IMG/VR virus record: IMGVR_UViG_3300021410_000065
Location: 1 to 59,479 of that record
Origin: a virus
Length of the DNA stretch: 59,479 nt
Direction: 5' to 3' (one strand)
In this document: positions 1,165 through 47,530 of the stretch, one piece after another
Layout of the letters: each line of letters starts with the position of its first letter
Numbering within the stretch: the first letter of the stretch is position 1
The notes under the pieces: model-generated
Told to the model about the DNA's origin: nothing
Database searches by the model: none
The model's input: the letters and a program-made list of their open reading frames with translations, nothing else
Program-made: the position numbers and the translations under genes

Positions 1165-1839
1165 ATGTGTGGACGAATCGCCCAATCTCGCGCCGTCGCC
1201 GACTATCTGGAGACGATCGCCTGGAATTCCTACAGCCTGCCCGACGTGCTGGGCCCGCGCTACAACGTGCCGCCCGGCACGAAGCCGTTGGCGTTCCACT
1301 GCTTGGCCGGCGACCCGGAGGTGTCGCGTCTTTTCTGGGGCTACAAGCCGCTGTGGTTTAAGCGTGCTCCAGTGAGCAACGCCCGCCTGGACACCATCCT
1401 CGATCCCAAGAAATCATTCTGGCGCGGACCGTTCAAACACGGCCGCATGCTGGTGCCTGCCGATGGCTGGTACGAGTGGACCGGCGAGAAAGGCAGCAAG
1501 CAGCCTTGGTTCATCCACTCCGAGGGCGACGAGTCCATCATGATGGCAGCGATCTGCGCGTGGCGCCCCGGTGCCGAAACAGACGCCGAACACGGCATGG
1601 CCATCGTGACCGATGATTCCGCAGGTGGGATGGTCGACATTCACGACCGCCGTCCAGTCGTGCTTCCGCCGGCGCTTGCGCGTGAATGGGCGGACCCGGC
1701 CACGACACCTGATCAAGCTCGCGAAATTATCGCGGCTGCTCTTCCATCCGATGCGTTTCGCTGGCACAGGGTGCGCACCGAGGTTGGAAGCTCGAACTAT
1801 CAAATGGCCGACGCCGTCTCGCCAATTGAGATGCCGTAG
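1165..1839 (+). CDS. yedK: SRAP (SOS response-associated peptidase) family protein, YedK-like
   Basis: HMCES/YedK family enzyme of 224 aa, the normal length. These proteins form a covalent thiazolidine crosslink with abasic sites in single-stranded DNA through the N-terminal cysteine, protecting the site. All key residues are visible: Cys2 directly after the initiator Met (MCGRI), Asn34 in the YNVPPG motif, Glu104 in PADGWYEW and His160 in DIHDRRPVVLP. A good AGGAG precedes the ATG. The gene sits in a probable operon behind a LexA box, so it is predicted to be SOS-induced, matching the family name. It lies in the accessory region next to attL and could protect either host or replicating phage DNA. 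Confidence 0.92.
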   Translation: MCGRIAQSRAVADYLETIAWNSYSLPDVLGPRYNVPPGTKPLAFHCLAGDPEVSRLFWGYKPLWFKRAPVSNARLDTILDPKKSFWRGPFKHGRMLVPADGWYEWTGEKGSKQPWFIHSEGDESIMMAAICAWRPGAETDAEHGMAIVTDDSAGGMVDIHDRRPVVLPPALAREWADPATTPDQAREIIAAALPSDAFRWHRVRTEVGSSNYQMADAVSPIEMP

Positions 1840-2061
1840 TAGCTTTGGCGAATCAACAATGCATCCTGCAACTAACGCACTAGACATCGTACCTATCGGA
1901 TCGGCAAATTGGCTTTGCGGCGGTACAACGCTTGCGAGCGTGGATATGTAAATCCCGTAGTCGCGGTTAGCAGATGCACAGTCCGCTGAGCTTTATATGT
2001 TTTAATGCAATTCAACACGTCGAAGTAATAGAACGTAACAGAAACAAGATATTTGGACATA

Positions 2062-3447: not shown

Positions 3448-3619
3448 TGCGAACTTCCTTAGCGGCCACTGCCGCTTGTTCATTGGTCTTCTCGGCCACT
3501 TCTTCGCGCGCCTCGCTACTCCCTTTGGCCTTTGCGCGGAAATAAATGCCGATCCCGGTAACCACGGCCGCCGCGATAGCGGCCAGCCAAGGGCCAAATT
3601 CAGCCAGTAGCGGCGTCAT
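3371..3619 (-). CDS. Rz: i-spanin (Rz-like) inner-membrane protein
   Basis: Protein of 82 aa with one N-terminal membrane helix (about residues 8-27, WLAAIAAAVVTGIGIYF) and a charged coiled-coil-like periplasmic part, the layout of i-spanins. Its ATG overlaps the endolysin stop (ATGA) and it contains the start of the o-spanin gene. It is shorter than lambda Rz (153 aa), but short i-spanins are common in overlapping Rz/Rz1 pairs. It probably forms the inner-membrane half of the spanin complex. Confidence 0.82.
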   Translation of the reverse strand: MTPLLAEFGPWLAAIAAAVVTGIGIYFRAKAKGSSEAREEVAEKTNEQAAVAAKEVRNVDVQIDRLPDGGAADQLKRDWLRK

Positions 3620-4296
3620 AGCGGCCCCTCATAGACGTACGGGACCTGCATTCCCGCTTCCAGCGTGGCGCGAACCTTGGCTGCTGCTTCGGCCTTGGTG
3701 ATGACGCCGTTGCCATCGATGTCCAAGCCGCTGTTCTGGCGGTATGTCGTGGGGCGGCCTTCCTGCGTCCATAGCGCTGAGGTCTCGGGCTTGCCGATCG
3801 CGGCCGGCCAAAGGATGGCCATGTAGACATCGCTCAAGGAATGCAGTCGATTGCGATACGGCTCGAAGTACTCGCGCACCAGGTCGAGCTGCTCCACGGC
3901 CGTCATCGCCGCAGCCTGCTCCACGGTCCGGCCCATCGATTTAAGCGTCGAAGGCATGAACTGGATCAAGCCAATGGCACCGGATCCGGCGGCGTTACGA
4001 ACGGTCGGGGTGAAGCGGGCTCGCGGGCCCGTCTCCCATGCCATGCAAGCCATCAGATGGTTCGGCTCGATCCCCAGCGCCGATGCCACCTCCACCGCCC
4101 TCTTCCGGAATGCCGGCGTCACGTTCGGATGGTTGCCCCACGCGAGCTTGATAGCGCTGCTCGAGCTTGGGCTGCTTGACGAGACGGGCGAGGATCCCGA
4201 GGAAGATGAGGACGATGCCGCCGTACTGGACGTACGCAGGCGGGAAAGTGCTTCGAATATCGCTCGGAAGAATTGCCCAAATTTGGAATGCTGCAT
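3616..4296 (-). CDS. Endolysin, lytic transglycosylase-like, start uncertain
   Basis: Peptidoglycan-cleaving endolysin. The conserved domain runs from LAWGNHPNVTPAFR through ACMAWETG (likely catalytic Glu, residue 88 in this numbering) and GAIGLIQFMPST, ending in an EF-hand-like DIDGNGVITKAEAA. It has no secretion signal, so release needs the holin. The frame is open up to an ATG at 4296, but the first 45-50 residues are an unnatural Ser-rich stretch that is simply the shifted frame of the holin C-terminus. In relatives I know, the protein begins just before the LAWGNHP motif. Here that codon is ATC (4150-4152) rather than ATG. A GTG at 4120-4122 is an alternative that keeps most of the domain. 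The stop overlaps the i-spanin start (ATGA). Confidence 0.85.
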   Translation of the reverse strand: MQHSKFGQFFRAIFEALSRLRTSSTAASSSSSSGSSPVSSSSPSSSSAIKLAWGNHPNVTPAFRKRAVEVASALGIEPNHLMACMAWETGPRARFTPTVRNAAGSGAIGLIQFMPSTLKSMGRTVEQAAAMTAVEQLDLVREYFEPYRNRLHSLSDVYMAILWPAAIGKPETSALWTQEGRPTTYRQNSGLDIDGNGVITKAEAAAKVRATLEAGMQVPYVYEGPL

Positions 4297-4408
4297 CAGG
4301 TACCGCCGTAAGGTAAGAGAAAAAGAGAGCAGCAGCGCCTTGGAACCAAATGGTCCACATGCGCCACCAGGATCGCCAGTCGGGGACGAGTTCGGGAAAG
4401 AGCTTCAT
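3995..4408 (-). CDS. Holin (DUF7940-type), with overlapping C-terminal tail
   Basis: The first 80 residues match the small phage holins that begin MKLFPELVPDWRSWWRMW. They have two membrane helices (about residues 17-36 and 57-77) ending in ARLVKQPKL. It permeabilises the inner membrane so the endolysin can reach the wall. Family members usually stop shortly after KQPKL, but this frame continues about 55 residues through a Gly/Glu-rich, low-complexity tail that is the shadow of the endolysin gene. Either the tail is real or a stop codon was lost. An AGG ribosome-binding motif precedes the ATG. It directly follows the membrane/coiled-coil gene at 4415. Confidence 0.82.
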   Translation of the reverse strand: MKLFPELVPDWRSWWRMWTIWFQGAAALFFSYLTAVPDAAFQIWAILPSDIRSTFPPAYVQYGGIVLIFLGILARLVKQPKLEQRYQARVGQPSERDAGIPEEGGGGGIGAGDRAEPSDGLHGMGDGPASPLHPDRS

Positions 4409-4414
4409 GGGTGA

Positions 4415-4924
4415 TTACCTGCGTTGAGGTGTGGAAACTGCGGGAGGTGACGGCGGATCGAAGGTGCTTTCGATCGCCTTGGACTGAACTACGGTTTCAG
4501 TGTTGGTCAGGCGCCCATCGATGCCAGACATCCGGCCCTCGACGCCGCGCACGCGCTCGACCACAGCGTCGAAGCTGCGGATGCTGTCGACGCCAGTGAG
4601 CACAGCCCAGCAGATGAAAGCCAGAAGGAATGGCGCGCCCCAAGCCATGAGCTTCAGCCAGCCTTCAAGGCTGACGATTCGCTTTTCGATGAGCTCTTTG
4701 TCCCGGCGCACCTGGTGGGCGACGTTCTCCACCTCCGTTATGCGAGCGTCGGCATGCTTCACCTCGGTTTGAATCGTCGCGATGTTGACGAGCATTTCGG
4801 TCTGCTTCAGCTGGCCAGCCTGAAGCTGTCGCATCGTCTCCACGATGTGCGACATGCGCTCGATCATCGTGGCGGCCTGCGCGCCGGTCATGCTGTCAGC
4901 GTTGTGCATGTCTGGATGGGTCAT
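4415..4924 (-). CDS. Membrane-anchored coiled-coil protein of lysis cassette
   Basis: Protein of 169 aa from the ATG at 4924 (an in-frame GTG at 4933 is an alternative). Residues 10-85 are predominantly helical with heptad-like spacing, followed by one membrane helix (WLKLMAWGAPFLLAFICWAVL). A second helical segment and a Pro/Ser-rich tail come after it. It lies between the terminator after the giant virion gene and the holin gene, 6 bp before the holin ATG, so it belongs to the lysis cassette. It could be an antiholin or a holin partner. Family not recognised; function inferred from position. Confidence 0.75.
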   Translation of the reverse strand: MTHPDMHNADSMTGAQAATMIERMSHIVETMRQLQAGQLKQTEMLVNIATIQTEVKHADARITEVENVAHQVRRDKELIEKRIVSLEGWLKLMAWGAPFLLAFICWAVLTGVDSIRSFDAVVERVRGVEGRMSGIDGRLTNTETVVQSKAIESTFDPPSPPAVSTPQRR

Positions 4925-4947
4925 GGAGGGCACTGCAGATAGGGACG

Positions 4948-4995: not shown

Positions 4996-7900
4996 CTATT
5001 GCGCTCGGCGCATGCGTTCATCCACAGACATCGCAAGCTGATTGCGCGCCTGTACGAGAGTGTCGAGCCGCAGGCGCTTCTCGTCCGCCGGCATCGTTGC
5101 GCTGGTCTCGATCCGCTTGATCTGCTGTCCAATCTCCTGCATGCGCTTATTGGCCGACTGGTAGAGGCCCCGCAGCTTGAGCTTGTCGTCGCCGGCGAGC
5201 TCTCGCGCGCGCTCGATGTCGCCCTCCTTGCGCGCCTGGGTGAACGCGGCATACACCTGGTCGATCTCGCGCTGCTGATCGTAGAAACGCTGGGTGTACT
5301 TGCTGCTGGTGGTATCGGCACCCTTTAGGAAATCGCCAACGACAAACCAGTTCTCGATCTTGGCCATATCGCGCGATGGATTTGCGGGCATATCGAGGGC
5401 TGGACGTGCTGCCCAGTCGGCGGCGCTGAGTGCCTGGGTGCCGAGCCAGCCGAAATACCCGCGTACCAAGTGTTCGATTCGCTGCGGCGAATAGCCAAGC
5501 GCCTTGCCCAGCGCCACTGCGCCGGCACTGGTGCGCGACGTGTAGCGATCGCCTTCCGGTAGCCGCTCCTGCGACGGCGTGTCGATGTTGCGATCGCGGA
5601 AGCTGTCGTAATTGAACGACGCCTCAAGGTATGGCTTAAGCATCTGGGGCATGGGGCTCATTTGCAGCTGATCGCCCAAGACGCTTGCCACGGTCTTGCC
5701 GAAGTCCTTCAGACGGTAATCGTCTCCGGCGAACGCCAGCTCAGTGCCGCGCTCCACGATCGTGCCCAGGGCGCCCACCTCGAACGGCTTCGGCACGTAG
5801 ACGAACTTGTCGCCTATACGCGTAACCCAATAGGTGTTGCGCACCCAGTCAGGAAGCTTTTTGTACTCGTCATCGTCCTTCATGCCCAGGTACAGAAGCG
5901 CCGATGCCATGGCGACGGCCCCCGTGACGGCCACGAACCGCGCGGGGTTTTCCTTGGCGCCGCGGCCCAGCTTGTACATACCCTGCAAGCGCGCGTTCAT
6001 AAAGGGGACCACCTGCGACAACAGACGTACCGCCGCAAACTTGCCGCCAGCCGTGAAGTCCATCAAATCGCGGGCGAGGTAGCTCGCTTCCAAGTGGGTC
6101 TTTCCACTCTTTCGGGCCTGGTTATAGATGGCGGCACGATTGACCGTTTCTGCGCGATCGCCAACCTCCTGATACCAGTCGAACGCTTTGCGCAGATGAC
6201 GGCCGAGGGCTGCCGGCGAGCCGATCACCTGCCCCCGCTCAACGCCCAGGTCCTCCACCAGCCGCTTCACGTTGCGAGCTTGGCCATCTTGGAACGAGCC
6301 GAACCGCACTGCCCCACCGCCGGCCAGCAACCGGCGGAAGGTATCGGAATCCTTGCCTGTAGATTTCCAGCCGTCGGCCATGTTGCGCAGCGGATTCGCG
6401 GAGATGTCCGTATTGATCGCCACCGCGGAGATCGAGTCGCGCATCAGGTTGCGCAGACGGAAGGTTGGGCTGATCGTCACGCCAACCGTGAGCGCGTGCT
6501 TGAACTTACGCATGCCCTTCATGATCGGATCATTCGACCCAACGTAGTGCAACGACGTGAGCGCATCCAGCACGAGCGGATCATGCACCAAGTAGTGCCG
6601 CTCCTGCCCCTTCACCATCACCCGAACGCTGCCCTTTTCGGCGCCCGCCAGACGATCCGCAACGCCCATCGTGCTGGCTGCCTGCAACGCCTCCTGGGCG
6701 GCAAGGTTCTTCATGCTGCCGGAAAGCAGATGCGACCAATTCGCCACGGTGTTCGCCGTCAGGTCGCCCAATTTCTCGCTACCACCCTTCAGCTTACGGA
6801 ATGCCCTCTGACCCACCAGTCCCCCGATCTGGCCGGGGCCCATCGTGCCGGTCTGGTCTTCCTCCATGACGCGATAGAACGGCACGTAGAACTCGCTCTC
6901 CCAGAGGTGCCGAGTGGCACCGTCGATCAAGCCTGCTTGCTCAGCGACATCCATCACCGAGGTCTGCAAATCGTTGAACTCGCGCAGGGCTGTGCGGTAT
7001 ACGTCCGCGCGATTACGGCCGTCGGGCATCTTGCCGCTGGCCAATTGTTTCAGGGACGCGATCTCAGCCGAGGAGAAAAGATTCTCGCGTCCCTCGCCGG
7101 CAAGTTTTTCGGCGCGATTGCCCGCGATCCACGCCATGAAATGATCGTGCTCGCCCTTCAGGTCGGCCAACACATCTGCCAGGCCTTTGGACCCGTCGAC
7201 ACCGTCGAGCGCGCCATCAGTAAGCTTGACCTTTCCACTGCGCACCAGGAACTCGGCAGCGCCGTCTGTACCCTTTGACAAGCGCGCCTGCATGTACGCC
7301 TGTTCGCTCAAGCCCTTGATCGGCGCGAACTGATCGAACACACCCTGCACCAGCTTGGTCTGCCAATTCTGCGTGTGCTTCTTCAGCCTATCGCGGATCG
7401 GCTCGCGGTCGGCGAAGGCCCCAATCTTCTTGAGCGCGCTATCGCGTACCGCTTGGCCTGCAGCGTGCAGTTGTTGCCCGGAGAGCGTGGTCGCTGCCGC
7501 GCGCGACTCCATCGGACCGCCAGAATCAAAAAGCCCCGCATTTGGCGGGGCTTTGTCGTTTCCGGGTCTATTCGAGTTGCTTACTTCGCTCGTAGCTCGC
7601 GGAGTCGGCTTAGGATCACTGGCTCCGCCGCCTGCATGTGCGAGAGCAGCGATTCGACTTCGGACGGCGTCAGGCGAGTCATGCTTGACGAGATAGCGTC
7701 CTTCGGATTCTGTGAGCGCGTCAAAGCCTCGGCCGCTGGCCGCGCGGAAGTCTGATTCGACATTTCCATAGCGTTCTCGCAGTGCTTTCAAGGTTTCGGG
7801 GGACAAGCGCAAGGTAGCACTGTACTGCTTCCCGGTCAACGCGAAAGAGCCAATAACGCGCCCCCCATTCTGCGTGATGTGGGACGCAAGCGACGCCAGG

Positions 7901-10900
7901 GTGCCGCCTTGCGTTAACGTATCGTCCACAAGGAAGTACGTCTCACCACGCCGTACTTCGCCATCGAATTCTGGTTGCTGGAAGATTCGATCCAAGCCTC
8001 CCAACGCAGTGCGCTTTGCGCGTACTGATTGATAGATGGCTCGCGCTACTGGAAGGCCCAGCGAATCCCCAAGTTGCAGAGCGGACGCCAGCGGAATCGT
8101 ATTGAAGCCAGTCGCTTCCTCAGCCAGCACCGGCACGATGGTCGGCCGCTCATTGCCGATAGCGGAACGAACCTTTTCGATCACATCCTCTGTCATCAGG
8201 GAGGACACGAGCTCGGCCGCAGCGGCAGCATCCCCAGCTTTTGCTGCGGCATGCGTGGGGTGCTTCCCTGCGCTGCCCAAGTTGTGGCCGATCACCGTCG
8301 GTGGCAGGTCGACGGGTTCAGGGCCGCGCCGAGAATCTGCGGCCAGGGCTGTCTTTCGGCTGCTCGCGGTAAGAGACGCGGCCGCCTCCAGCATGCCCGC
8401 CTGCGCACGATCGGCGCCGGCGCGACGCAGAAACCGTCCAGCATCTACAACCATCTGCTGCAGGTCGGCATTCGTCAGTTTGAGATCGAAACCCATCGCT
8501 CGCAGCGCCGCGCGCAATTTGGCGTACACCCGCACCAGAAAATGCGGCCGCTGTCCGGTTTCCGCCATGCGGGCGAGCACCTCGCGGGCGCGGTTTGCCG
8601 GGGTGTAGTCCGGATAAGCCAGAAAGACGGCCTCCATCGTCGCGTAAAGCGGGTGGCCGGGCTTCACGTCGCGCGGGATCTTCGCGCCCTCAGGTGCCCG
8701 AGCCAAGCGACGGACATCGGCAAGTATCGCAGGGAACTGTTCGCCCAGGAATGCTTCGACTCCAAAGTGGCCGATAACCTCATGTGCCAGCACCTGTTGC
8801 AAGCGCGCTTCGCTGGACAAGTTGTCGGCCACCAAGTAGATCGCCCCTCCTTCGGTTCGAGGGTAATACACGCCCTCTGCCAATGGGGACGGCCGCGCCG
8901 CCTCGCCGATTTCACCCACGGTCTTGACGACCGAAACCTTCAACCGCGATGCCCCCGGGAGCTGCGACATGAATTTTCGCGCGGTGGCACGCGCCGTATC
9001 CACCGACACGCGACTGGCCTGATCGTGGGCGCGAGACTCAAAGGACGTGCCATGGGTGCGAAATTCTCCGGTTTCCCCGAGCGATTTCCCATCTCGCGTG
9101 ATGGCATCCGTAGGCGAGACGTCGGCTGCCTTCAGGGCTCGGGCCACATTCGCGGCGGCGTCGATCGAAGCGGGGCTGGTATCCCGCACGGAGATGAATG
9201 CACCGACGGCGTTCGACTTCTCGAGCCCGCCAAGCACTGTATCCAGACCGCCGGAGGTGCGCAGCGAGGCCATCTTTTCCAATGAAAGCGGCACAAAGGC
9301 TGACGGGCGCAAATCAGCGTTCACGAACAGCAGCCCTTCCTCTCCGTTCGAAAGCTCGCGCACAGCGACCTTTGCACGCTCTGGCGAGTTGACCGGCTCG
9401 CCCATCTTGCCCGACCGCTTAAAGACCCGCTGAGAGACCGGGATTCGTGTGACTCGCGACCGTGCCGGTATGACGTGATTCGCCTTTTCCGTTTGGGTCG
9501 CTGGGTCGTAGAAAGAAAAGGTTGGATTGCCGATGGCAAGCATGCCGCGCAACTTCACATGCGAACCGCGCGTCAGATCCGCGTATGCCTTAGTGACCTC
9601 TCGGTCCGCCCTGGAGAAGGACGCGTTGCCGCTTGGATGATTGTGAGCCAGCCAGACGTTCGACGCATTCTTGATCCGAGACACGTGTCCCGCGATAAGG
9701 CCGATCGGCGCGGTTGCGCTGGAACGATCCCCAATGCTGAATCGAATGACGCTCATCGGCCGCCCATCGGCGTCAGTGACGAGGGCGACCATCTGTTCCT
9801 GCGGCGACTTACGAATTTGTGCGAGCGCGTGCGCCGCGTCCTCGGCCGAGCTGATTCGGCCATTGGCTGCCGTCAGGTGCCCCGTCTCTCGCGCCTCGAC
9901 GTATGCTGCAAAGCGGCCGTGCTCTACTTCTTCGTGGTAGACCGCACGCGCGGGGCTGCCGATGGCGGGGAGATTTGGTACGTCGCGTGATCGTCGGGCA
10001 TCACCCCCGGGACGTTGGGTCCCAGAGCTTCCTCGGGCAGCTGGTACTGCTTGCTGCTGCGACGAGCCGCGACGGTCGGGGTCGGCGCCGAACATGTCGG
10101 CGGTGTATTGGTCTCGGGGCTGTTCGACATCTAGGTTTTTCCCTTCGGCGTCTTGGCCCGCGCCGCCTTGAATGCCCGGACGAACGCCATCGTGCCCGAG
10201 ACCATATCGCGCTGCTTCTCGCTTAACTGCGGCCTCGAAGTCGCCGTCGTCTCCTGCTCGGATTGCGGCACGTTCGAGGATTGCTTCAATTCCGGTTTCA
10301 TCTGTAATTCCTTTCTCGACGAGATAGCGGGCAGCGTCGAATCGCTGGCCGACTTTCTCCAATGAGGCACCCGCTCCCTGCGCTGCCAGAGCGTCAAACA
10401 CAGCATCGGCGAGATCCGCAGCGAAAGCCGTGTCACCACGCGCAGCATCTTCGGCCTCGCGCTCGGCATAGGCGCGCTGAGCCGCCTCATCCATCTGCGC
10501 CAATGTGTAGACCGGCTCGCCCTCCAACGCATCGCGCACTCGGTCAAGCGCCGTTTGGCCCAAGTCTACCGAGTCAGCATCCATCGGCAGGTAGCCCGCT
10601 TCTTGCATCGCGGCGACAAGCGCATCTTCCTGCATACCGTTGCGTTTGAAAAGCCCCGGTGCTCGGCGATTCGCCAAATGCGCACGATCCCCATAAATGT
10701 CGGCAGCCAACTTCGGCGAAATGCCGCCGCTTTGCTTCAGCAGACGGACGAACGACTTGCGGGCCGTTTGCCCGAAGTCGACGGACGTTTCCGCAGCAGC
10801 TGAACCGCGTGCAGGCATCGTGCGGGGCCTGGCGACGAAGCCGCCACCTTGCTGGATCACGTCAGCATCGCCATGCGCAGCAGCGGCACGAGTTGCTGCG

Positions 10901-13773
10901 CTGCGCGTAAGGAACGGCTTCCCGCCCTTCGCCAGGATGTCAGAGGCAGGCTTCTCGACCTGCAGCGTTCCCAGACCGGGATCAGGATCGACCGATGTCC
11001 GATCAACTCGCGCGGCCGGCGCCGTAAAATCCCCCGTCTTGGTCCAATCCTTGAACTGGGCCATTGACATCTCAGTCATCGCGCCCAGGCCCTTCCAGTC
11101 GTTGCTGTAACTCGATTGGTAGGCCTCGCGGGCCGCTTCCTCATTGGCGTAGCCCATCATGACCTTGTGCTCGTCAAAAGCGCCCGAGGTCGGGTCCACC
11201 TGGTCGATCACAAACACCGGTCCGGCGTAGTCGGAGGCCGTGCCCGGACGAACATATGCGTCAACATGATCGCCGTCGTTGCCAGTCGTACCACGGATGT
11301 ATCCGTAATGGCCGGCCATGCGGTTCGACCATTCCTGCCCGTCAGGCGACCGCCCACGGCGCTCCGAACCCTCCGGATTCTCCACGGTGATGTCCAGACC
11401 GGCCACTTTGATATGGCCCTTTCGATAGTTACCCGCCTCTTTCTGCGCCTCGCTCGGAGGCGCAAGGTCATTCGAGTCAGATTCGGCAGACTCATGCGCG
11501 GCGGCATCGAGCGATGCCGCCGGATGAGCAAATCCAGCGCGCATAACATCATCGGTCAATCCAAGCGACTCGCGCTCAGACGCCTGCGTGCGTTCAGCTT
11601 CCGCGGATGCGAAACGTTGGTCTGCAGTCTGTGCTGTGCCTTGTGCGTCGACAGTAACGGTGGGCGCCGGCAGCGCGGGCCGCGCTGAGCGTCCTTCCAG
11701 TGCCCCGTTGACGCCTTCCGTCAATGCCTCTGCCCCATAGGGTTGCATGCCATTCTCATGGCGGATGATGGCGGCGGTCAGACGCTGCAGCGTGTCAGGA
11801 TCGCGCAGGTTCAGCTGGGCAGTGGCCGAGACCCCCATCTCGCCAGCGACAGCGCGGGCATACGACGCAGTGTCGTTCTCGGACGACGGGGCCCAGCGAT
11901 TGAGTATCGCGGTTACCGTATCGAGGCCGTGCTTATCCTGGTACGTGAGTAGGTTGCGCGCAAGCGCTCGAATGCCTGCCTCCGGGCTGGAGAAGATAGC
12001 AAAGCGGCCATCGGCGCCGTCCACCTCGCCCTGAAACCCGATACCCTTCTCGATGTTGCCAGGGTTATTGTTTCGGATCCCGCGCGGCGCATTCCGAGGC
12101 ATGCCGGATCCTTGCCGCATCACGAACCCATCCCCGCCCGCACGCACATTCTCCGGAGCTGGTAATGCCGCGCGTTCCCGCGGTCCTTCGAGTGCCTCCA
12201 GTCGCTCAGGCGCTGGCAGCGCCAGAGTCTGCTCTTCGCCCAGGGGTTGCTCGCGCAGATCATTCAGGTCGACAAACCGGCTCTGACCATTGACGCGCAC
12301 CCGAGCTCGTCGGCCGTTTTCCCAAGCGCCGCCGGATTCGTAGCCGATGAACTCGGCAGGCTGGCCGTGCCAGAAGACCTGCTGCCCGCGCGCGAATCCA
12401 AGATCGGGGCTCGGGGATGGCTCGCTTGCTTCGGCCGTCTCGCTTTCTGCTGCCTCATCCGCGCGAGCCGCTGCCGCATCGGCGATCTCAGGAGGCATCA
12501 CCGACTCCGGCGCAGGGCGCACGATGAAACCATTGCCCGCGCGCATGACTTGAGCGCCGTCGCCCAAACCCTCTGCCGCGCGCCGCGCCCCTTCAACGGT
12601 GGCAAATGGCTTGCCATTCCGGAAGGTGACGTCCGTATCTGCAACGCGGCCAGCTACCGGGATCGAGCGCACTCGCGCTCCGTCAATCGCACCGTGTGCA
12701 ACCCCGGGGCCCGTGCCTGCCATCGCCCCCATGACTGCGTTACCAAACGACCCTTCCAGCACATCCATATCCATGCCGCCGGCGGAGTTCACAGCTGCGC
12801 GGGTGCTCACGCCCTCGGCAACCTCCTGCGCACCTTCTTCTGCGCCCGACAAAGCGGCGCGTCCTGCAGCTTGGCTTATCACTCCGCGGTTGCCCAAGAC
12901 GCGCCCCGCTGGTGACAAGATCACCCCTGTGGCCCCGCCCGTCACTGCCCCGATCGCTAGGCCAGCGGCGCTGGCCAAGTCCTCAGCTTGGCGCAGCACC
13001 TTCGCACGAGCCTGCGATGGGCTCATTCCATCTCGTAAAGCCTCCCTGAAAGGCTTTGACTCGCGCTCGAGTTCAGCGTCATCCATGCCGCCGATAATTT
13101 CCCGCGCCTGTTCGATTGCCGAGCCGCCACTTTGCGCCGATCCCGCAGCCGCGCTCGCTCCAATCTGCCCGGCCAAACCAAGCGGGCCCGCTGCGATGCG
13201 AGAGAGCAAGACAGGCCCCATCGAGCCCAGCGCTTCGGCGGCCTGCAAAGCAAGACCAGCGGTAGACGGATCCGAGCCGAATGTCCAGCTTGACGGGTCA
13301 GCGAGCGACCCATCAGGCTTGGACGTCTCAGCGGCGCGCTTCGCCGCGGATGATCGGGACTCCAACAGTCCAGCGCCCCATTCTTGCACCGTATCTGCTG
13401 CGGGATCGAGAAGATTACCTGGCATCGCAACGCCAGCGTCGAAAGCTTGATTTACAGCGGTGGCGCCAACCTCTCCGATCGCTTGCGCGACCTTGCCAGC
13501 ACCGCGAATAGCACTGCCTGTACCTCGCACAGCGCCACCAGCCACGCTCAGTGGAACGTCGATGAACTGGATGCCCTCCGGTTCGACCTCCGCAGATGAC
13601 TGCGCACGGGACGGCAAGAACGGCTCCGTCTCCGCAACGAATTGCAGCGACGCTGGCTCGGCTTGCCTTGGGCCATTGGCCCGGACATTCGCGGTGCGAT
13701 CCGCTACGCCGCCGCGAAACGCCGCACCATCTTGATCGACTGGCGGCACGTCCAAAAACTGAATTTCAGGCAT
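4996..13773 (-). CDS. Giant polyvalent virion protein (2925 aa), probably ejected with DNA
   Basis: Start at the ATG at 13773, which has a strong AGGAAG; the longer frame would invade the upstream gene. Domains in order: a repeated IQF[LI]DVP motif (residues 3 and about 67); a GK-PF...GxGF-V-RP repeat (about 385-420 and 947-983); a peptidoglycan-hydrolase-like domain beginning RGIRNNNPGNI (about 565-680); an inorganic-pyrophosphatase-like polyvalent domain with YGYIRGT-DGDHVDAYV (about 775-915); a RadC/JAB-like domain with HNHPSG (about 1290-1421); a zincin with HEVIGH (about 1663); a PRTase-like motif VDDTLTQGGTL (about 1949); and a long C-terminal region like polyvalent-associated LPD38 (about 2120-2800) with a membrane-type helix near 2612. 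Such proteins enter the cell with phage DNA and act against host defences (known theme). It is last of the virion genes. Confidence 0.92.
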   Translation of the reverse strand: MPEIQFLDVPPVDQDGAAFRGGVADRTANVRANGPRQAEPASLQFVAETEPFLPSRAQSSAEVEPEGIQFIDVPLSVAGGAVRGTGSAIRGAGKVAQAIGEVGATAVNQAFDAGVAMPGNLLDPAADTVQEWGAGLLESRSSAAKRAAETSKPDGSLADPSSWTFGSDPSTAGLALQAAEALGSMGPVLLSRIAAGPLGLAGQIGASAAAGSAQSGGSAIEQAREIIGGMDDAELERESKPFREALRDGMSPSQARAKVLRQAEDLASAAGLAIGAVTGGATGVILSPAGRVLGNRGVISQAAGRAALSGAEEGAQEVAEGVSTRAAVNSAGGMDMDVLEGSFGNAVMGAMAGTGPGVAHGAIDGARVRSIPVAGRVADTDVTFRNGKPFATVEGARRAAEGLGDGAQVMRAGNGFIVRPAPESVMPPEIADAAAARADEAAESETAEASEPSPSPDLGFARGQQVFWHGQPAEFIGYESGGAWENGRRARVRVNGQSRFVDLNDLREQPLGEEQTLALPAPERLEALEGPRERAALPAPENVRAGGDGFVMRQGSGMPRNAPRGIRNNNPGNIEKGIGFQGEVDGADGRFAIFSSPEAGIRALARNLLTYQDKHGLDTVTAILNRWAPSSENDTASYARAVAGEMGVSATAQLNLRDPDTLQRLTAAIIRHENGMQPYGAEALTEGVNGALEGRSARPALPAPTVTVDAQGTAQTADQRFASAEAERTQASERESLGLTDDVMRAGFAHPAASLDAAAHESAESDSNDLAPPSEAQKEAGNYRKGHIKVAGLDITVENPEGSERRGRSPDGQEWSNRMAGHYGYIRGTTGNDGDHVDAYVRPGTASDYAGPVFVIDQVDPTSGAFDEHKVMMGYANEEAAREAYQSSYSNDWKGLGAMTEMSMAQFKDWTKTGDFTAPAARVDRTSVDPDPGLGTLQVEKPASDILAKGGKPFLTRSAATRAAAAHGDADVIQQGGGFVARPRTMPARGSAAAETSVDFGQTARKSFVRLLKQSGGISPKLAADIYGDRAHLANRRAPGLFKRNGMQEDALVAAMQEAGYLPMDADSVDLGQTALDRVRDALEGEPVYTLAQMDEAAQRAYAEREAEDAARGDTAFAADLADAVFDALAAQGAGASLEKVGQRFDAARYLVEKGITDETGIEAILERAAIRAGDDGDFEAAVKREAARYGLGHDGVRPGIQGGAGQDAEGKNLDVEQPRDQYTADMFGADPDRRGSSQQQAVPAARGSSGTQRPGGDARRSRDVPNLPAIGSPARAVYHEEVEHGRFAAYVEARETGHLTAANGRISSAEDAAHALAQIRKSPQEQMVALVTDADGRPMSVIRFSIGDRSSATAPIGLIAGHVSRIKNASNVWLAHNHPSGNASFSRADREVTKAYADLTRGSHVKLRGMLAIGNPTFSFYDPATQTEKANHVIPARSRVTRIPVSQRVFKRSGKMGEPVNSPERAKVAVRELSNGEEGLLFVNADLRPSAFVPLSLEKMASLRTSGGLDTVLGGLEKSNAVGAFISVRDTSPASIDAAANVARALKAADVSPTDAITRDGKSLGETGEFRTHGTSFESRAHDQASRVSVDTARATARKFMSQLPGASRLKVSVVKTVGEIGEAARPSPLAEGVYYPRTEGGAIYLVADNLSSEARLQQVLAHEVIGHFGVEAFLGEQFPAILADVRRLARAPEGAKIPRDVKPGHPLYATMEAVFLAYPDYTPANRAREVLARMAETGQRPHFLVRVYAKLRAALRAMGFDLKLTNADLQQMVVDAGRFLRRAGADRAQAGMLEAAASLTASSRKTALAADSRRGPEPVDLPPTVIGHNLGSAGKHPTHAAAKAGDAAAAAELVSSLMTEDVIEKVRSAIGNERPTIVPVLAEEATGFNTIPLASALQLGDSLGLPVARAIYQSVRAKRTALGGLDRIFQQPEFDGEVRRGETYFLVDDTLTQGGTLASLASHITQNGGRVIGSFALTGKQYSATLRLSPETLKALRERYGNVESDFRAASGRGFDALTESEGRYLVKHDSPDAVRSRIAALAHAGGGASDPKPTPRATSEVSNSNRPGNDKAPPNAGLFDSGGPMESRAAATTLSGQQLHAAGQAVRDSALKKIGAFADREPIRDRLKKHTQNWQTKLVQGVFDQFAPIKGLSEQAYMQARLSKGTDGAAEFLVRSGKVKLTDGALDGVDGSKGLADVLADLKGEHDHFMAWIAGNRAEKLAGEGRENLFSSAEIASLKQLASGKMPDGRNRADVYRTALREFNDLQTSVMDVAEQAGLIDGATRHLWESEFYVPFYRVMEEDQTGTMGPGQIGGLVGQRAFRKLKGGSEKLGDLTANTVANWSHLLSGSMKNLAAQEALQAASTMGVADRLAGAEKGSVRVMVKGQERHYLVHDPLVLDALTSLHYVGSNDPIMKGMRKFKHALTVGVTISPTFRLRNLMRDSISAVAINTDISANPLRNMADGWKSTGKDSDTFRRLLAGGGAVRFGSFQDGQARNVKRLVEDLGVERGQVIGSPAALGRHLRKAFDWYQEVGDRAETVNRAAIYNQARKSGKTHLEASYLARDLMDFTAGGKFAAVRLLSQVVPFMNARLQGMYKLGRGAKENPARFVAVTGAVAMASALLYLGMKDDDEYKKLPDWVRNTYWVTRIGDKFVYVPKPFEVGALGTIVERGTELAFAGDDYRLKDFGKTVASVLGDQLQMSPMPQMLKPYLEASFNYDSFRDRNIDTPSQERLPEGDRYTSRTSAGAVALGKALGYSPQRIEHLVRGYFGWLGTQALSAADWAARPALDMPANPSRDMAKIENWFVVGDFLKGADTTSSKYTQRFYDQQREIDQVYAAFTQARKEGDIERARELAGDDKLKLRGLYQSANKRMQEIGQQIKRIETSATMPADEKRLRLDTLVQARNQLAMSVDERMRRAQ
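7528..7553 (-). terminator. Terminator-like hairpin inside the polyvalent gene
   Basis: Minus strand: AAGCCCCGC, loop CAAAT, GCGGGGCTT, then a T run (complement of 7528-7532). It is a textbook intrinsic terminator but is translated in frame (NDKAPPNAGLF), at the junction between the PRTase-like region and the LPD38-like C-terminal part. Active translation would normally mask it. Confidence 0.6.
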
Positions 13774-13784
13774 TCGTTTTCTTC

Positions 13785-15533
13785 CTATTGTGCGCTGCGG
13801 TTGAACGCTGCGCGCGACATGTCCGACCCGCCCACGGAGGTCGTCCACTCATCTTCAGCGCCCTTGGCGCCTGCTTTAGCTATTGCCAACTTGTCTTCAG
13901 CTTCTTGCAGGCGGGTCCTATGAGCGTCTCGCTCTTCAGCCGGCCGCTTAAGCCCGGGCGGATTGGATCGCAGCCGATGCACTTCCTGTTCGAGCGTCCG
14001 CACCTGCGCCCGCGCAGCGTCCAAGCGCGTCCCCGCTGGGCTGTCAGGAGATTCACTGGACGGTGCGATCGCAGGTGTGCCGCGGCGCGGAGGCGCTGGT
14101 GTCGGTGCTGCCGGGCTGGCGGCTGGCGCTTGCTGGGCGCCAGTGCCTCGCGCTCGGTAGTTCGGATCGAGTTGCTGCTTGACACGCTCCAGGTCTGCCG
14201 GCGGCACAACTGATTGAGGAACGATCACGTCGTGCCCTTCGTACCGAGTGACAATTGCATGCCGCCCGTCGCTCATGCGAACCCCGCGCAGCTCGGCTTT
14301 GCCGTCACGCACAGCTGCGGAAAGGGTAGCCAAGTTCGCGGGCGTAAGCGCGCGTGATCCCGGCATGCCACGATTGAGCGCGCCAATGTTTTCGCCGATC
14401 GCGATCTGCCGGCCAATCTTCTCTCGCTGGTCATCGCCGATGTCTGTCATGCTTTCGACGCCGTTAAGCTTGAAGACGTAGGAGGTGAAGTCCTTGTTGC
14501 TCGCCGCAGGCTTCGAATCGCCCGCCTCTGCGCCGTAAGCGATAGCCCGCGTCTGGCCGTCTGCCCCCGGCGCATAAAGAATGTCGTCTTTGCCCAGCAC
14601 GCGCGGCTTGGCGGCTTCTGCCTGGCGTTCCAGCTCGGCCTTCTGCTGTTGCCTCTTCAGGTCGGTTGCTAAGTCCATGTGCGCCTTAGCTTGCTGCACC
14701 ATCATCGAGCGCGCTGTGGCTGGATCGCCAATCCGACGGATGTAATCATCCATCTGCGCTTGCGTGAACGGAGTCGTGAACTTGGCCTTGCTCGATGGGT
14801 CGTAGCCGGTGATCTCATAGATCGGCTTACCGCCGCCGGTTTCCTCGCGAGCTCGAATACCTTCGACTTGAATGCCGGTTTCGCTGAACCGGTTGAGAAA
14901 CGGAACGAACGCGTTGGGATCGCTGCTCATCTGGTACCGGTTCATTGCGGCGCTGAACGCGGTCTCTCGATGCTGGCCAATTACCTTCTCGCGACGTACC
15001 AACAGATCGAGCGCCTGATCAGGCGCACCCAATTCCAGGGCCTTCCGGTAGCCGCGAGTCAAGGTGTCCGCCATGTCGGCGTAGTCGTCGTTGCCGCCTC
15101 GTGACAAATCACCGGTCGTCAGATTTTTTTTTTGAACCGGCATCGGCTGAAGTCCACTGCTGGATCCGAAAGTTGCTCCAGCACCCCCGGCCGTTGCAGT
15201 TGGCATCGACTGGCGCACGGCGGCTTGCTGGTTGTCGTGCGCAACGGCCATGTCCAGTCCCAGAGAGCTTGTCAGGCCAGCCTGCGACTCCACGTTGAAA
15301 GCGGGCGCGACAGCGATTGGGGATAAGCCAAGCGGCGCTTCGCCGCGCGCTGCCTGTGGCGCTCCCGTATGGGATGTCACTTTCATCGCATCCGCTATTG
15401 CCTTCGTCTTGGCTTCTGCAGCAGCAGCCTTCTCCCGTGCAGCCTGCCTATCAGTCGACTGCTCAAAAATCTGCGACATCACCATACCGTTACGCAGGCC
15501 GTCGGCGAGGCCACTAGCAAAACTACCACTCAT
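13785..15533 (-). CDS. Internal virion protein, hypothetical (582 aa)
   Basis: Large soluble protein without a recognised catalytic domain. The N-terminal 130 residues are Ala/Ser/Gly-rich. The middle has helical, charged segments (KAHMDLATDLKRQQQ). About residues 470-515 are a Pro/Ala-rich linker, and residues 515-565 look coiled-coil (RLDAARAQVRTLEQEVHRLR). The gene lies between an S74-type virion protein and the giant polyvalent protein, only 11 bp from the latter. This is the position of internal or ejection proteins in P22-like and Bcep22-like phages, so a role in forming or filling the ejection conduit is inferred. Confidence 0.8.
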   Translation of the reverse strand: MSGSFASGLADGLRNGMVMSQIFEQSTDRQAAREKAAAAEAKTKAIADAMKVTSHTGAPQAARGEAPLGLSPIAVAPAFNVESQAGLTSSLGLDMAVAHDNQQAAVRQSMPTATAGGAGATFGSSSGLQPMPVQKKNLTTGDLSRGGNDDYADMADTLTRGYRKALELGAPDQALDLLVRREKVIGQHRETAFSAAMNRYQMSSDPNAFVPFLNRFSETGIQVEGIRAREETGGGKPIYEITGYDPSSKAKFTTPFTQAQMDDYIRRIGDPATARSMMVQQAKAHMDLATDLKRQQQKAELERQAEAAKPRVLGKDDILYAPGADGQTRAIAYGAEAGDSKPAASNKDFTSYVFKLNGVESMTDIGDDQREKIGRQIAIGENIGALNRGMPGSRALTPANLATLSAAVRDGKAELRGVRMSDGRHAIVTRYEGHDVIVPQSVVPPADLERVKQQLDPNYRARGTGAQQAPAASPAAPTPAPPRRGTPAIAPSSESPDSPAGTRLDAARAQVRTLEQEVHRLRSNPPGLKRPAEERDAHRTRLQEAEDKLAIAKAGAKGAEDEWTTSVGGSDMSRAAFNRSAQ

Positions 15534-15544
15534 GTGAAGTCCCC

Positions 15545-16756
15545 TTAGATTCGTTCCAGGCCAACGAGGCCCGCGGCCATATCGGCCTGAAGGTGTTGCG
15601 GAAGGCGGGTTGACCGGTCTTCCTTCGGTTCGGTGTCGCGGTGATCGCGTTCAGGCGCAGGTATGGGCGAAAGTCCCAACCGGCCCTTAATTTTCGCGAG
15701 GTCTTTGCCGAGCGCGCGGATCGCGGCGTGGTGCTTGCCACTCACACTGACCATATCCAATCCCAGGCCACCTGGCGCCACTTCATCACCGAACTGCTCG
15801 TTCATGTCCTCGGCATACGGCCCAGTGTGGCGCCCGCTGTCCTCCACGCCGTCCTTGTATTTCCAGTCTTCTACGGGCACCTTCATCAGACCTTGCAATG
15901 CCTCAGCGTCATCGACCGGCCGGCCGTCCTCCTTCAGCGTCTCGGACGACTTGGCGTACATTGCACCCGCCATCAACCCGGTACCAAGCAAGCTGCCGAT
16001 GCCAGCATTTGCAGAGTTAGCAGCGTTGACCTGCGATTGCCACTGGTTCAACGCCAAACTCCCAGAAGAATTGTTTGCGCCCACGGCTGTACCCATAAGC
16101 CCCTGCGCCGACTGCCCGGCGGCAGCAGCCTGATTCGTTTGCCCGGCCATCGCGCCCTGCGCGGAGTTGCCTCCCTGGAGGGCGGCAGCCGAGGCCGCCA
16201 AGCCGGTACCAGTTTGGTTGCGCCCGAAGCGCGCCGCCTCTTGACGCATCGACATGCCCAACAGCTTCGTATCGCTGCGCTCCTTATTCACTGCGCCCGC
16301 TGTCGCAAGCGCCTTGGCGTTGCCCTGTTCTGTCATGGCTTGAAGTCCAAGACTGCTCGTCGGCGCCACCCCCATCCGACCCATCTGGCGACCCATCTCA
16401 GCCGTCGAGGCATCGAACTGTCGCCCGACCGTCGCGGCGGCCAGGCCTTCGCGGCGCGCGACCTCTGCCGGCGAGTCGTAGGTCATGGCCTCATCGGCCA
16501 TCCGATTCTCGATGGGCTGGAAGACTGATTCGTACTGGCCCCACTGCGAGTCGGCGCGACCCGCGTTGTCACCCTGTTCGTCCAGCGCCGCCTTCAACAG
16601 CTGTTCATAGATCGGCTGGAACTGATCGTTGAGCGCCTTTTGATCCGCGTATTGCTCGCGCGAGAGTTGGAGCGCTTCGCGGCCGATTTCCGCGTTCGCC
16701 TCGGCGGCACGGCCGACTGCCGGGTCCGCTTTCGGCGTTGACGATTTACCGCCCAT
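15545..16756 (-). CDS. Virion protein with C-terminal S74-type chaperone domain
   Basis: Protein of 403 aa. The N-terminal two thirds are helical and rich in Ala, Gln and Gly (EANAEIGREALQLSREQYADQ, then long low-complexity helices), ending in a hydrophobic Gly-rich helix (GIGSLLGTGLMAGAMYA). Residues about 268-325 resemble the intramolecular chaperone of endosialidases and fibres (peptidase S74): SSETLKEDGRPVDDAEALQGLMKV, with DWKYKDG after it. S74 domains drive trimer folding and usually self-cleave at a Ser; S269 or S270 before ETLKED would be the candidate. Unlike most S74 proteins the N-terminal part does not look like a beta-fibre, so it is more likely an internal or tail-needle-like protein. 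It overlaps the GNAT gene by 11 bp. Confidence 0.8.
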   Translation of the reverse strand: MGGKSSTPKADPAVGRAAEANAEIGREALQLSREQYADQKALNDQFQPIYEQLLKAALDEQGDNAGRADSQWGQYESVFQPIENRMADEAMTYDSPAEVARREGLAAATVGRQFDASTAEMGRQMGRMGVAPTSSLGLQAMTEQGNAKALATAGAVNKERSDTKLLGMSMRQEAARFGRNQTGTGLAASAAALQGGNSAQGAMAGQTNQAAAAGQSAQGLMGTAVGANNSSGSLALNQWQSQVNAANSANAGIGSLLGTGLMAGAMYAKSSETLKEDGRPVDDAEALQGLMKVPVEDWKYKDGVEDSGRHTGPYAEDMNEQFGDEVAPGGLGLDMVSVSGKHHAAIRALGKDLAKIKGRLGLSPIPAPERDHRDTEPKEDRSTRLPQHLQADMAAGLVGLERI

Positions 16757-17174
16757 GTTTGTCTCCCAAGAAACGGCACTCTTCGTAGAGCATGCCGAGA
16801 ATGATTCCGTCTTCCCCGCCGAAGGCGCGACGTATCACCCCCTCCTGCTTGAAGCCCAAGCCGAGATCCATCCGGATCGCAGCTTCGTTGGTTGCGCGAA
16901 CCAAACCGGTGACGCGCGCAAGGCGCCATTGCACGAATGGCACCCAAAAGACTGTGCGAAGGAACTCTCGCGACAAGAAGCGACGGCTGCCGTCAGAGGC
17001 GACGTGCAGCATGCAGTTGAAGTCCGTAATCCCGTCGTACACGACCACGCCGAGGATCCGGCCGTCGCCGCTGATGCTGGCGACGCATTTGGTCGAGGGG
17101 CCATGCTCGAACTTCTCGCCCAAGCAGTCCGACGCAAACCGGAAGTACTCCGGCCGCTGGGTACCGTCAATCAT
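16746..17174 (-). CDS. GNAT-family N-acetyltransferase
   Basis: 142 aa, about the size of a minimal GNAT domain. Strand-helix pattern: VASISGDGRILGVVVYDGI, then a helix/strand segment ending RVTGLVRATNEAAIRMDLGLGFKQEGVIRRAF, which is the acetyl-CoA-binding end of GNAT enzymes (N-x-x-A-x-R followed by LGF..EG). It transfers an acetyl group from acetyl-CoA to an unknown substrate. It overlaps both neighbours, so it is translated with the virion genes. GNAT genes occur at this position in several podovirus-like phages; the target is unknown. Confidence 0.85.
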   Translation of the reverse strand: MIDGTQRPEYFRFASDCLGEKFEHGPSTKCVASISGDGRILGVVVYDGITDFNCMLHVASDGSRRFLSREFLRTVFWVPFVQWRLARVTGLVRATNEAAIRMDLGLGFKQEGVIRRAFGGEDGIILGMLYEECRFLGDKHGR

Positions 17175-17391
17175 CCGTCGCCTCGGCGACAGCCGGCGGC
17201 GCGAACTGATCCAATGCGGCAGCGACCGCGCTTTCGATCGCCTTGTTGTTGGCCGCCGTTTGTGCTTCGTCGTGGGCTTTCAGCGCGTGCGCGACCGTCA
17301 TCATCAGCCCAGCTGCGAGCTCATGACTCAGCGTGTTTCCCAGATTCGCCCGCAGGGCCTTATCGATTGATTCAAGCATTGTCGTGTCCAT
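17167..17391 (-). CDS. Small hypothetical protein
   Basis: 74 aa, acidic, Ala-rich and predicted mostly helical (ALRANLGNTLSHELAAGLMMTVAHAL). It overlaps the GNAT gene by 8 bp and begins right after the terminator at 17392-17414. It has no recognised family. Confidence 0.65.
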   Translation of the reverse strand: MDTTMLESIDKALRANLGNTLSHELAAGLMMTVAHALKAHDEAQTAANNKAIESAVAAALDQFAPPAVAEATDD

Positions 17392-17414
17392 AAAAAAACC
17401 GCCTCAGCGGCGGT
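17392..17414 (-). terminator. Intrinsic terminator within fibre region
   Basis: Minus strand: ACCGCC, loop GCTGA, GGCGGT, then seven T. It overlaps the stop codon of the gene ending at 17414. It splits the late operon between fibre genes and internal virion genes, so antitermination or partial readthrough is expected. Confidence 0.8.
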
Positions 17415-17602
17415 CAATTCTTCGGGTAGGTCTTTTTCACTTCATCGACGGCATCGATCCATAGGTCGACCTCCGGCGGCATCTGCTCGCCTCGGGCGCG
17501 CAGCTGTGAGGCAAGCTTGTATACGGCGTCCAACTGTTCTCCAATCTCTGGATACTCAGCGCGCCGGCGAGCGGCATAGTCGCCCTTATGATGGATTTTC
17601 AA
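17414..17602 (-). CDS. Small hypothetical phage protein, fibre-associated
   Basis: 62 aa. The pattern YAARRRAEYPEIGEQLDAVYKL resembles short XkdW-like proteins often found next to tail-fibre genes, where an assembly role is assumed. It overlaps the upstream gene by 17 bp. No membrane segment. Confidence 0.7.
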   Translation of the reverse strand: MKIHHKGDYAARRRAEYPEIGEQLDAVYKLASQLRARGEQMPPEVDLWIDAVDEVKKTYPKN

Positions 17603-17972
17603 CAGTGAACTCCATATCTTGGAACGGGAACGCTCGGATCCGGACGATGTAGGTGCCGGGAAACGCGAAAGACAGATCGATGTCGCTGCCGTCCGCCGCG
17701 TATTGCTCGTCCTCGATCGTGATCAGCGCACCCGCTGGCACACCGCGTAGCAACGATCCCGATCGTTCGATTGCGAGCGCAGGCCGCGCTTTCGGCTCGC
17801 CGTTCGCGAAATACGTCTTTGCCCTGTCGAACACACCGGGTACATAGTCCTGATACCGGCCAAGTTCTTTGGTGACGCGCGCACTGTTGCGATCCATCGT
17901 CGCATTTAGCGTAACTTCGCCTTGCTCGTCGTAAAACGTCCAAGCTTGCGCGGACAGAGTTTCGTCGATCAT
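17586..17972 (-). CDS. Hypothetical virion-region protein
   Basis: 128 aa, predicted largely beta (WTFYDEQGEVTLNATMD, then SFAFPGTYIVRIRAFPFQDMEFTVEN). This is the look of a small beta-sandwich accessory fibre or adaptor protein. It follows the gpJ-like gene by 7 bp. It has no recognised family. Confidence 0.7.
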   Translation of the reverse strand: MIDETLSAQAWTFYDEQGEVTLNATMDRNSARVTKELGRYQDYVPGVFDRAKTYFANGEPKARPALAIERSGSLLRGVPAGALITIEDEQYAADGSDIDLSFAFPGTYIVRIRAFPFQDMEFTVENPS

Positions 17973-17979
17973 CTATTTC

Positions 17980-46259: not shown

Positions 46260-46483
46260 AGCGCCTTTGCAACGCCTGGCGCATTCACTGCGCCCGCCGC
46301 GACCAGCTGCCGCCGCTGGATCGCGATCGCTACGACATGGACATGCGCGAACTGGCCGTGTGCCTCGCGGCGTTCCTTGCCGTCTTCCTCTTCAGCGTAA
46401 TCATCATGCCGACTCTCGACGCCCAAGCCGAGGCTCGCATGGCCCAAGAACATCGCGGCACGACCACATACGCCGCCAAATAG
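46256..46483 (+). CDS. Small single-pass membrane protein
   Basis: 75 aa. A charged N-terminal part (about 30 residues) is followed by a membrane helix (ELAVCLAAFLAVFLFSVIIM) and a short tail, so it has a type II-like topology. Coupled to the upstream mini-gene. Unknown role. Confidence 0.65.
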   Translation: MKRLCNAWRIHCARRDQLPPLDRDRYDMDMRELAVCLAAFLAVFLFSVIIMPTLDAQAEARMAQEHRGTTTYAAK

Positions 46484-46491
46484 GAGCCGTC

Positions 46492-47523: not shown

Positions 47524-47530
47524 GAGGATC

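Follow-up and report, generated by a model that had tools for sequence, protein, structure and literature searches.

A giant polyvalent protein of a temperate podovirus-like phage carries a RadC-type JAB domain, and a likely degenerate JAB partner, in one of two apparently exchangeable slots

Results

The window considered here is a whole virus record of 59,479 bases, and one gene on it encodes a single protein of 2925 residues, the parts of which are collected in Table 1. The original prediction had this frame exactly right but left its strand unsaid; a plus-strand reading of the same interval was ruled out, being full of stops. An AGGAAG-like ribosome-binding site lies ahead of the minus-strand ATG, and the alternative in-frame start, a GTG at 13848, is weaker. 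Phage relatives retain the frame, at ~50-68% identity through most of it, so it is no chance ORF. Portal, major head protein and internal virion protein genes lie upstream of the giant gene on the same strand, that of the large terminase (TerL) is on this strand as well, tail fibre genes are also present, and an integrase and a repressor are encoded elsewhere. Given this combination of portal, terminase, head and tail genes with a repressor and integrase, the phage is a temperate tailed phage, and it is podovirus-like; among named phages, Achromobacter phage CF418P1 is the closest to it. The giant gene closes the series of virion genes and is followed by lysis-like genes at 3616-4933, so that it sits with the late genes for virion proteins in a phage that has portal and terminase, as is characteristic of the polyvalent class. 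Elsewhere in the window, two long minus-strand ORFs at 46330-47682 and 51329-52699 (450 and 456 aa) could be real genes or shadow frames, and neither has a PHROGs match at E 0.001.

Table 1. Features of the giant gene, its predicted protein and two other genes of the window
Feature	Residues	Position	Strand	Remarks
Whole polyvalent/ejection protein gene		4996..13773	minus	2925 aa; ATG 13773, stop 4996
N-terminal segment	170-368	12670..13266	minus	hydrophobic/helical; phrog_2206, E 3e-13
Murein hydrolase	557-715	11629..12105	minus	Enc34 endolysin/PHA02564 family, lysozyme fold
InPase (polyvalent-type inorganic pyrophosphatase)	775-912	11038..11451	minus	Pfam PF18823, E 1e-56
Scaffold domain	1020-1219	10117..10716	minus	53-60% identity, 11/14 close relatives
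Slot A	1258-1575	9049..10002	minus	here RadC JAB and degenerate JAB
RadC-type JAB	1307-1422	9508..9855	minus	Pfam E 7e-14; PDB 2qlc E 8e-21
Second JAB/MPN fold (pseudo-JAB)	1436-1578	9040..9468	minus	predicted by AlphaFold2 and Foldseek
Zincin-like metallopeptidase, HEXXXH type	1580-1800	8374..9036	minus	motif and conservation only
Slot B	1804-2072	7558..8364	minus	here phosphoribosyltransferase (PRTase)
PRTase	about 1805-2045		minus	within slot B; PRPP loop VDDTLTQGGT, 1949-1958
C-terminal module	2085-2925	4999..7521	minus	phrog_18222, E 4e-213; conserved, mainly helical
LPD38	2634-2802	5368-5874	minus	Pfam E 4e-37
Portal gene		31040-33220		
GNAT acetyltransferase gene		16746-17174		amid virion genes; JC1 gp63 counterpart, 50% identity over 100 residues

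Towards the N-terminus, residues 170-368 show similarity to the N-terminal part of the N4-type virion RNA polymerase (vRNAP), a protein that is packaged and injected, and this stretch is probably a packaging or ejection segment. The peptidoglycan-hydrolase-like domain that had been proposed was readily recovered, both in PHROGs (E 9e-61) and as matches to PDB 7q47 (E 3e-37), the endolysin of Hafnia phage Enc34, and to the virion protein Gp29 (9vvp, E 1e-40). Murein-degrading activity has been demonstrated for the Enc34 domain, with Glu131, Trp79 and Tyr95 as its key residues (PMC8943055). The window domain aligns with 7q47 over its full length, placing these residues on the predicted catalytic E673 and on W627 and Y638, which are invariant in 8 relatives; the catalytic Glu and groove Trp and Tyr of the Enc34/PHA02564 family are therefore all present. 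Whereas Enc34 endolysin is a free lysis enzyme, the window domain is part of a giant protein in a phage with the separate candidate lysis cassette noted above. The InPase-like domain that follows, also named in the original prediction, is confirmed by its Pfam match (Table 1), carries the motif residues D833 G D835 H V D838 and resembles the portal-fused InPase of Pa193 gp19 (E 8e-46). The Pa193 portal entry 9b41 matches the InPase in sequence, but was rejected as a solved InPase structure, since the part concerned, residues 529-765, is without density (PMC11042391).

The domain at residues 1020-1219 has no match in Pfam or PHROGs and, among the 14 close relatives scanned, is absent from L009 and L011/L012. 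A PHROGs match to DarB-like proteins is limited to residues 201-921, which correspond to the N-terminal scaffold. We also observed a segment of the form GKPF.T...GA..A....GGGF..RP that occurs twice. The two copies share 41% identity over 59 residues (E 4e-11); one, at residues 381-439, precedes the murein domain, the other, at 945-999, follows the InPase, and the segment is repeated in relatives too.

The RadC/JAB-like domain that had been predicted from the letters alone is confirmed by its database matches (Table 1) and by its metal motif. The JAMM motif is defined as E-Xn-H-X-H-X7-S-XX-D (PMC300881) and reads here E1326-H1377-N-H1379-X7-S1387-XX-D1390, intact and invariant in 14 relatives. 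The region directly downstream, residues 1436-1578, has no match in Pfam or PHROGs, but an AlphaFold2 model built with 14 relatives was confident (pLDDT 84.6), and in a Foldseek search the best 5 of the 50 matches listed were chains of RadC 2qlc (probability 0.99-1.00, TM 0.53-0.59), followed by CSN5, Rpn11 and Rpn8. The best Foldseek E-value was modest (2.5e-3) and profile comparison of the two JAB halves was weak (probability 27%, P 7e-4), so the homology of this region to the RadC-type JAB is likely rather than proven. A BLAST comparison of the protein with itself did not pick the two halves out as a repeat. A ClpP/NfeD-like fold, suggested by weak matches, was dropped because RadC chains took the top five places and NfeD was absent among the 50 matches listed. 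Whilst the modelled fold is that of a JAB domain, the JAMM/MPN+ metal motif is missing: the pseudo-JAB is without metal ligands, no catalytic H-x-H is found in the aligned copies, and the lone HRH in one of them (L088) sits in another strand.

The tandem of RadC and pseudo-JAB, aligned over both halves, also occurs in 13 other IMG/VR loci, with the near-duplicates L085/L086 and L089/L090 counted once each. When 16 RadC-bearing giants were scanned with Pfam, RadC was found in all 16, LPD38 in 7, the InPase in 6 and a polyvalent ADP-ribosyltransferase in 5, which identifies these as phage-type proteins. The tandem module had no match in any of 50,697 phage records, a scan of bacterial genomes gave a single weak and partial match, and one of 72,556 plasmid records, from Pseudomonas sp. 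KHPS1, matched over both halves. The plasmid ORF (L103:11794-17223, 1809 aa) is collinear with the window protein through RadC, pseudo-JAB and HEXXXH zincin at 30% identity over ~400 residues. It differs in lying among the tra genes of a MOBP/MPF_T conjugative plasmid and in running into an ArdC-like region, and no InPase, murein or LPD38 parts were noted in it. Its annotated CDS starts at 12817 and the open frame, which includes the RadC and pseudo-JAB, at 11794, so the record seems short by ~340 N-terminal residues.

A HEVIGH zincin had also been proposed, and this part of the original prediction stands on its motif and conservation: HEVIGH begins at residue 1664, and H1664, E1665, H1669 and a downstream E1731 are invariant in 20 sequences. 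The helix motif and downstream Glu expected of a zincin are thus both present. The motif has the HEXXXH spacing and not that of HEXXH, and the survey of Iyer et al. describes this spacing in a group of peptidases (MPTase) of polyvalent proteins (PMC5512222). Domain and alignment searches with this region gave no Pfam match and no credible PDB sequence match. The PRTase-like motif further along proved to belong to a recognisable domain, with matches to a PHROGs family (E 3e-62) and to PRTases in the PDB (E 4e-6, with alignment), and a Pfam match (E 3e-4) below that model's curated cut-off. In its PRPP loop the acidic DD is followed by GGT as expected, and D151-D152 to T159 are invariant in 7 sequences. 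Residues 1916-2024 also gave a weak match, at E 0.001 and far below cut-off, to the XopC/Rsp1239 effector family model.

A comparison of the window protein with 14 giant ORFs from its family separates constant parts from variable ones. Where the modules are present, identities are 51-54% for the N-terminus, 59-68% for the murein domain, 59-66% for the InPase, 64-67% for the zincin and 64-67% for the C-terminus. Slot A, bordered between residues 1219/1258 and 1571/1589, holds the RadC tandem in the window, L009 and L011/L012, LPD5 and LPD1 with a HEWWH motif in ten relatives (L004-L008, L010, L013, L015, L016 and L019), and neither in CF418P1, in which it is empty. Slot B holds the PRTase in the window and L004-L008, and LPD3 in the rest (L002, L009-L013, L015, L016 and L019). 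All four combinations (RadC with PRTase, RadC with LPD3, LPD5 with PRTase and LPD5 with LPD3) are present, a result that is hard to obtain other than by cassette recombination at the slot borders, and these borders fall in linkers rich in Ala, Gly, Pro and Ser. As judged from this comparison, the pattern is one indicating that the two slots are exchanged as cassettes on a constant scaffold.

Two irregular members of the family were also seen. The giant of L011/L012 is without the N-terminal and murein modules, and the murein domain is instead found on a separate 318-aa ORF (184-1137) about 8 kb upstream, an arrangement in which the murein module appears to have been naturally split from the giant, or else fused to it in the other relatives. 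The giant frame of L014 (IMGVR_UViG_2718218011_000003, 9977-19450) lies in several pieces in different frames, matching throughout, and may be either a decayed gene or the product of sequencing errors.

The LPD38-like end of the original prediction was found within a C-terminal module of much greater extent, which contains one hydrophobic stretch at about 2611-2632. The AlphaFold model of this module was poor (pLDDT 56, pTM 0.34), too poor for a fold search, and alignment to PDB sequences gave nothing credible. By BLAST, the module is homologous to the C-terminus of gp69 of phage JC1 (E 8e-16), and JC1 gp61, gp63 and gp64, encoded upstream of gp69, have counterparts among the window genes, arranged in the same order.

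Discussion

We consider it about 75% probable that this protein of a temperate podovirus-like phage serves both as an ejection protein packaged in the virion and as a vehicle for delivering interchangeable effectors, a reading built on the modules, the intact catalytic residues and the slot exchange seen in the sequences. The N-terminal segment and C-terminal LPD38 module would retain the protein inside the capsid and then take it along when the DNA leaves, and the Enc34-type domain, belonging to a family with demonstrated activity, would cut murein glycan strands at the entry point. Once inside, the HEXXXH zincin may cleave either the polypeptide itself or a host protein, and so release an enzyme cargo that would act early in infection. 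Within this cargo the InPase could remove pyrophosphate or a nucleotide, the PRTase could make or remove a nucleotide, and the RadC/pseudo-JAB pair would act as a single metal-dependent hydrolase, one half of it an inactive partner, on a protein or nucleic-acid substrate. With the RadC tandem and PRTase lying in two recombination slots, related phages carry different effectors on the same scaffold, as the sequence comparison shows.

The argument for packaging draws on JC1 gp69, a 4515-aa 'DarB-like antirestriction' protein of a Lessievirus (Bcep22-like), which was detected by mass spectrometry in CsCl-purified JC1 virions with 51 unique peptides and carries lytic-transglycosylase-like, LPD3 and LPD38 domains (PMC9144972). 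Taking the C-terminal homology and shared neighbourhood, including the head-closure-like and GNAT genes, together with the head, portal and internal-virion genes upstream, the N4 vRNAP-like N-terminus and the virion-type murein hydrolase, we think it probable that virions contain the window protein and inject it along with the DNA. The likeness has limits, as BLAST aligns the two giants at their C-termini only and gp69 has methylase and helicase regions, with InPase, RadC and PRTase not listed for it (PMC9144972). As for the release of cargo, the N4 vRNAP is described as packaged and injected unprocessed despite having a peptidase domain (PMC5512222), so one should not presume that the window protein is cleaved ahead of packaging. 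Perhaps the zincin does release the cargo, but the N4 case in the same survey means that this step may be wrong.

What the cargo does can be read in more than one way. It is possible, although we hold this tentatively, that the RadC tandem, InPase and PRTase assist the DNA as it enters, through end processing, pyrophosphate clearing and nucleotide supply, rather than acting on immunity. Iyer et al. proposed that single domains act in this manner, with RadC predicted in their survey to process nucleic acids or nucleotides (PMC5512222), and the occurrence of the RadC-pseudoJAB-zincin block in both a phage giant and a conjugative plasmid protein, the latter with its ArdC-like region and surrounding transfer genes, suggests that both routes of DNA entry use this block. 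However, RadC biochemistry is poorly understood and no DNA-binding domain was recognised in the window protein.

More doubtful is a role as a counter-defence weapon, in which the RadC/pseudo-JAB pair, InPase and PRTase mainly disable host immunity, for example by taking apart the ubiquitin-like conjugates that CBASS- or Bil-type systems form, or by destroying nucleotide signals. JAB proteins remove ubiquitin-like conjugates in known systems, and phage P1 offers a precedent in DarA and DarB, which are virion antirestriction proteins. The RadC JAB is intact in all 14 aligned sequences, the tandem resembles MPN+/MPN- pairs such as Rpn11/Rpn8, both of which also figure in the fold-search list, and cassette exchange is typical of arms-race genes. 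Set against this, RadC-type JABs have been argued, in the survey of Iyer et al., to be without a groove for the ubiquitin tail (PMC5512222), a PADLOC search of the whole protein gave no match and no target or partner was found. DarB-like proteins, which protect against type I restriction, have methylase and helicase regions; Pfam and PHROGs searches recovered neither in the window protein. A CBASS or restriction role for the giant protein is speculation, and the action on host defence factors put forward in the original prediction stays a hypothesis. We regard as improbable the more elaborate proposal that RadC and pseudo-JAB form a single-chain counterpart of MPN+/MPN- pairs (Rpn11/Rpn8, CSN5/CSN6, BRCC36/KIAA0157). 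In this proposal the unit would be injected and would work as a metal-dependent deconjugase or peptidase, with its substrate placed by the inactive partner domain; it would have moved between the ejection proteins of phages and the transfer proteins of conjugative elements, and would target a host factor as the DNA enters. Least likely of all is that the protein is mainly a structural conduit of the virion in which only the murein hydrolase matters and the other enzyme domains are passengers of little use: the constant parts are the scaffold parts, slot A is empty in CF418P1 and the murein domain of L011/L012 lies outside the giant, but the catalytic residues of the JAB, zincin, PRTase and murein domains are invariant across diverged relatives, and other domains of catalytic or polyvalent type take the place of the cargo in the slots.

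The original prediction held that the domain mix may be new, and this is true of a part of it. The kind of protein is already known and well described: several biochemically unrelated domains (InPase, RadC, PRTase, zincin, LPD38 and murein hydrolase) share one polypeptide, and InPase, lysozyme, HEXXXH zincin MPTase, PRTase and LPD38 are common to the window protein and the phage-type polyvalent proteins of Iyer et al. 2017 (PMC5512222). That survey, in the passages dealing with these domains, found RadC only in polyvalent proteins of conjugative elements, in a class separate from that with InPase, LPD38 and lysozyme, and those passages do not mention a following pseudo-JAB (PMC5512222). The RadC-bearing phage-type giants break this separation of classes as the survey passages draw it, and, to the extent of those passages, the pairing of an intact and a dead JAB in a phage-type protein is previously unrecorded. 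What is new is thus the tandem JAB in a phage-type setting, together with the clean exchange of two slots. The second JAB-like domain, the vRNAP-like segment and the full extent of the C-terminal module all go beyond what had been predicted.

If the protein is indeed an ejection protein with interchangeable effectors, then these phages offer a natural experiment, in which one delivery scaffold has two cargo slots filled independently by related phages, and comparing them would show which host factor is answered by each cargo. The JAB/pseudo-JAB pair, being present both in giants of phages and on a conjugative plasmid, also supplies a defined partner for RadC, a domain that is poorly understood, and a setting in which its chemistry can be tested.

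The closest named counterpart is the giant of CF418P1 (WNO49116.1, 2684 aa), which shares the N-terminus, murein hydrolase, InPase, domain 1020-1219, zincin and LPD38 module at 49-65% identity, with the same gene order around it, and differs in being without the RadC tandem and in having LPD3 where the window has the PRTase. This ORF (OQ817832.1, 8822-16876) is annotated as 'putative portal', a label that is apparently wrong because the window, which encodes its counterpart, has a separate portal gene; the CF418P1 product appears to be the polyvalent protein instead.
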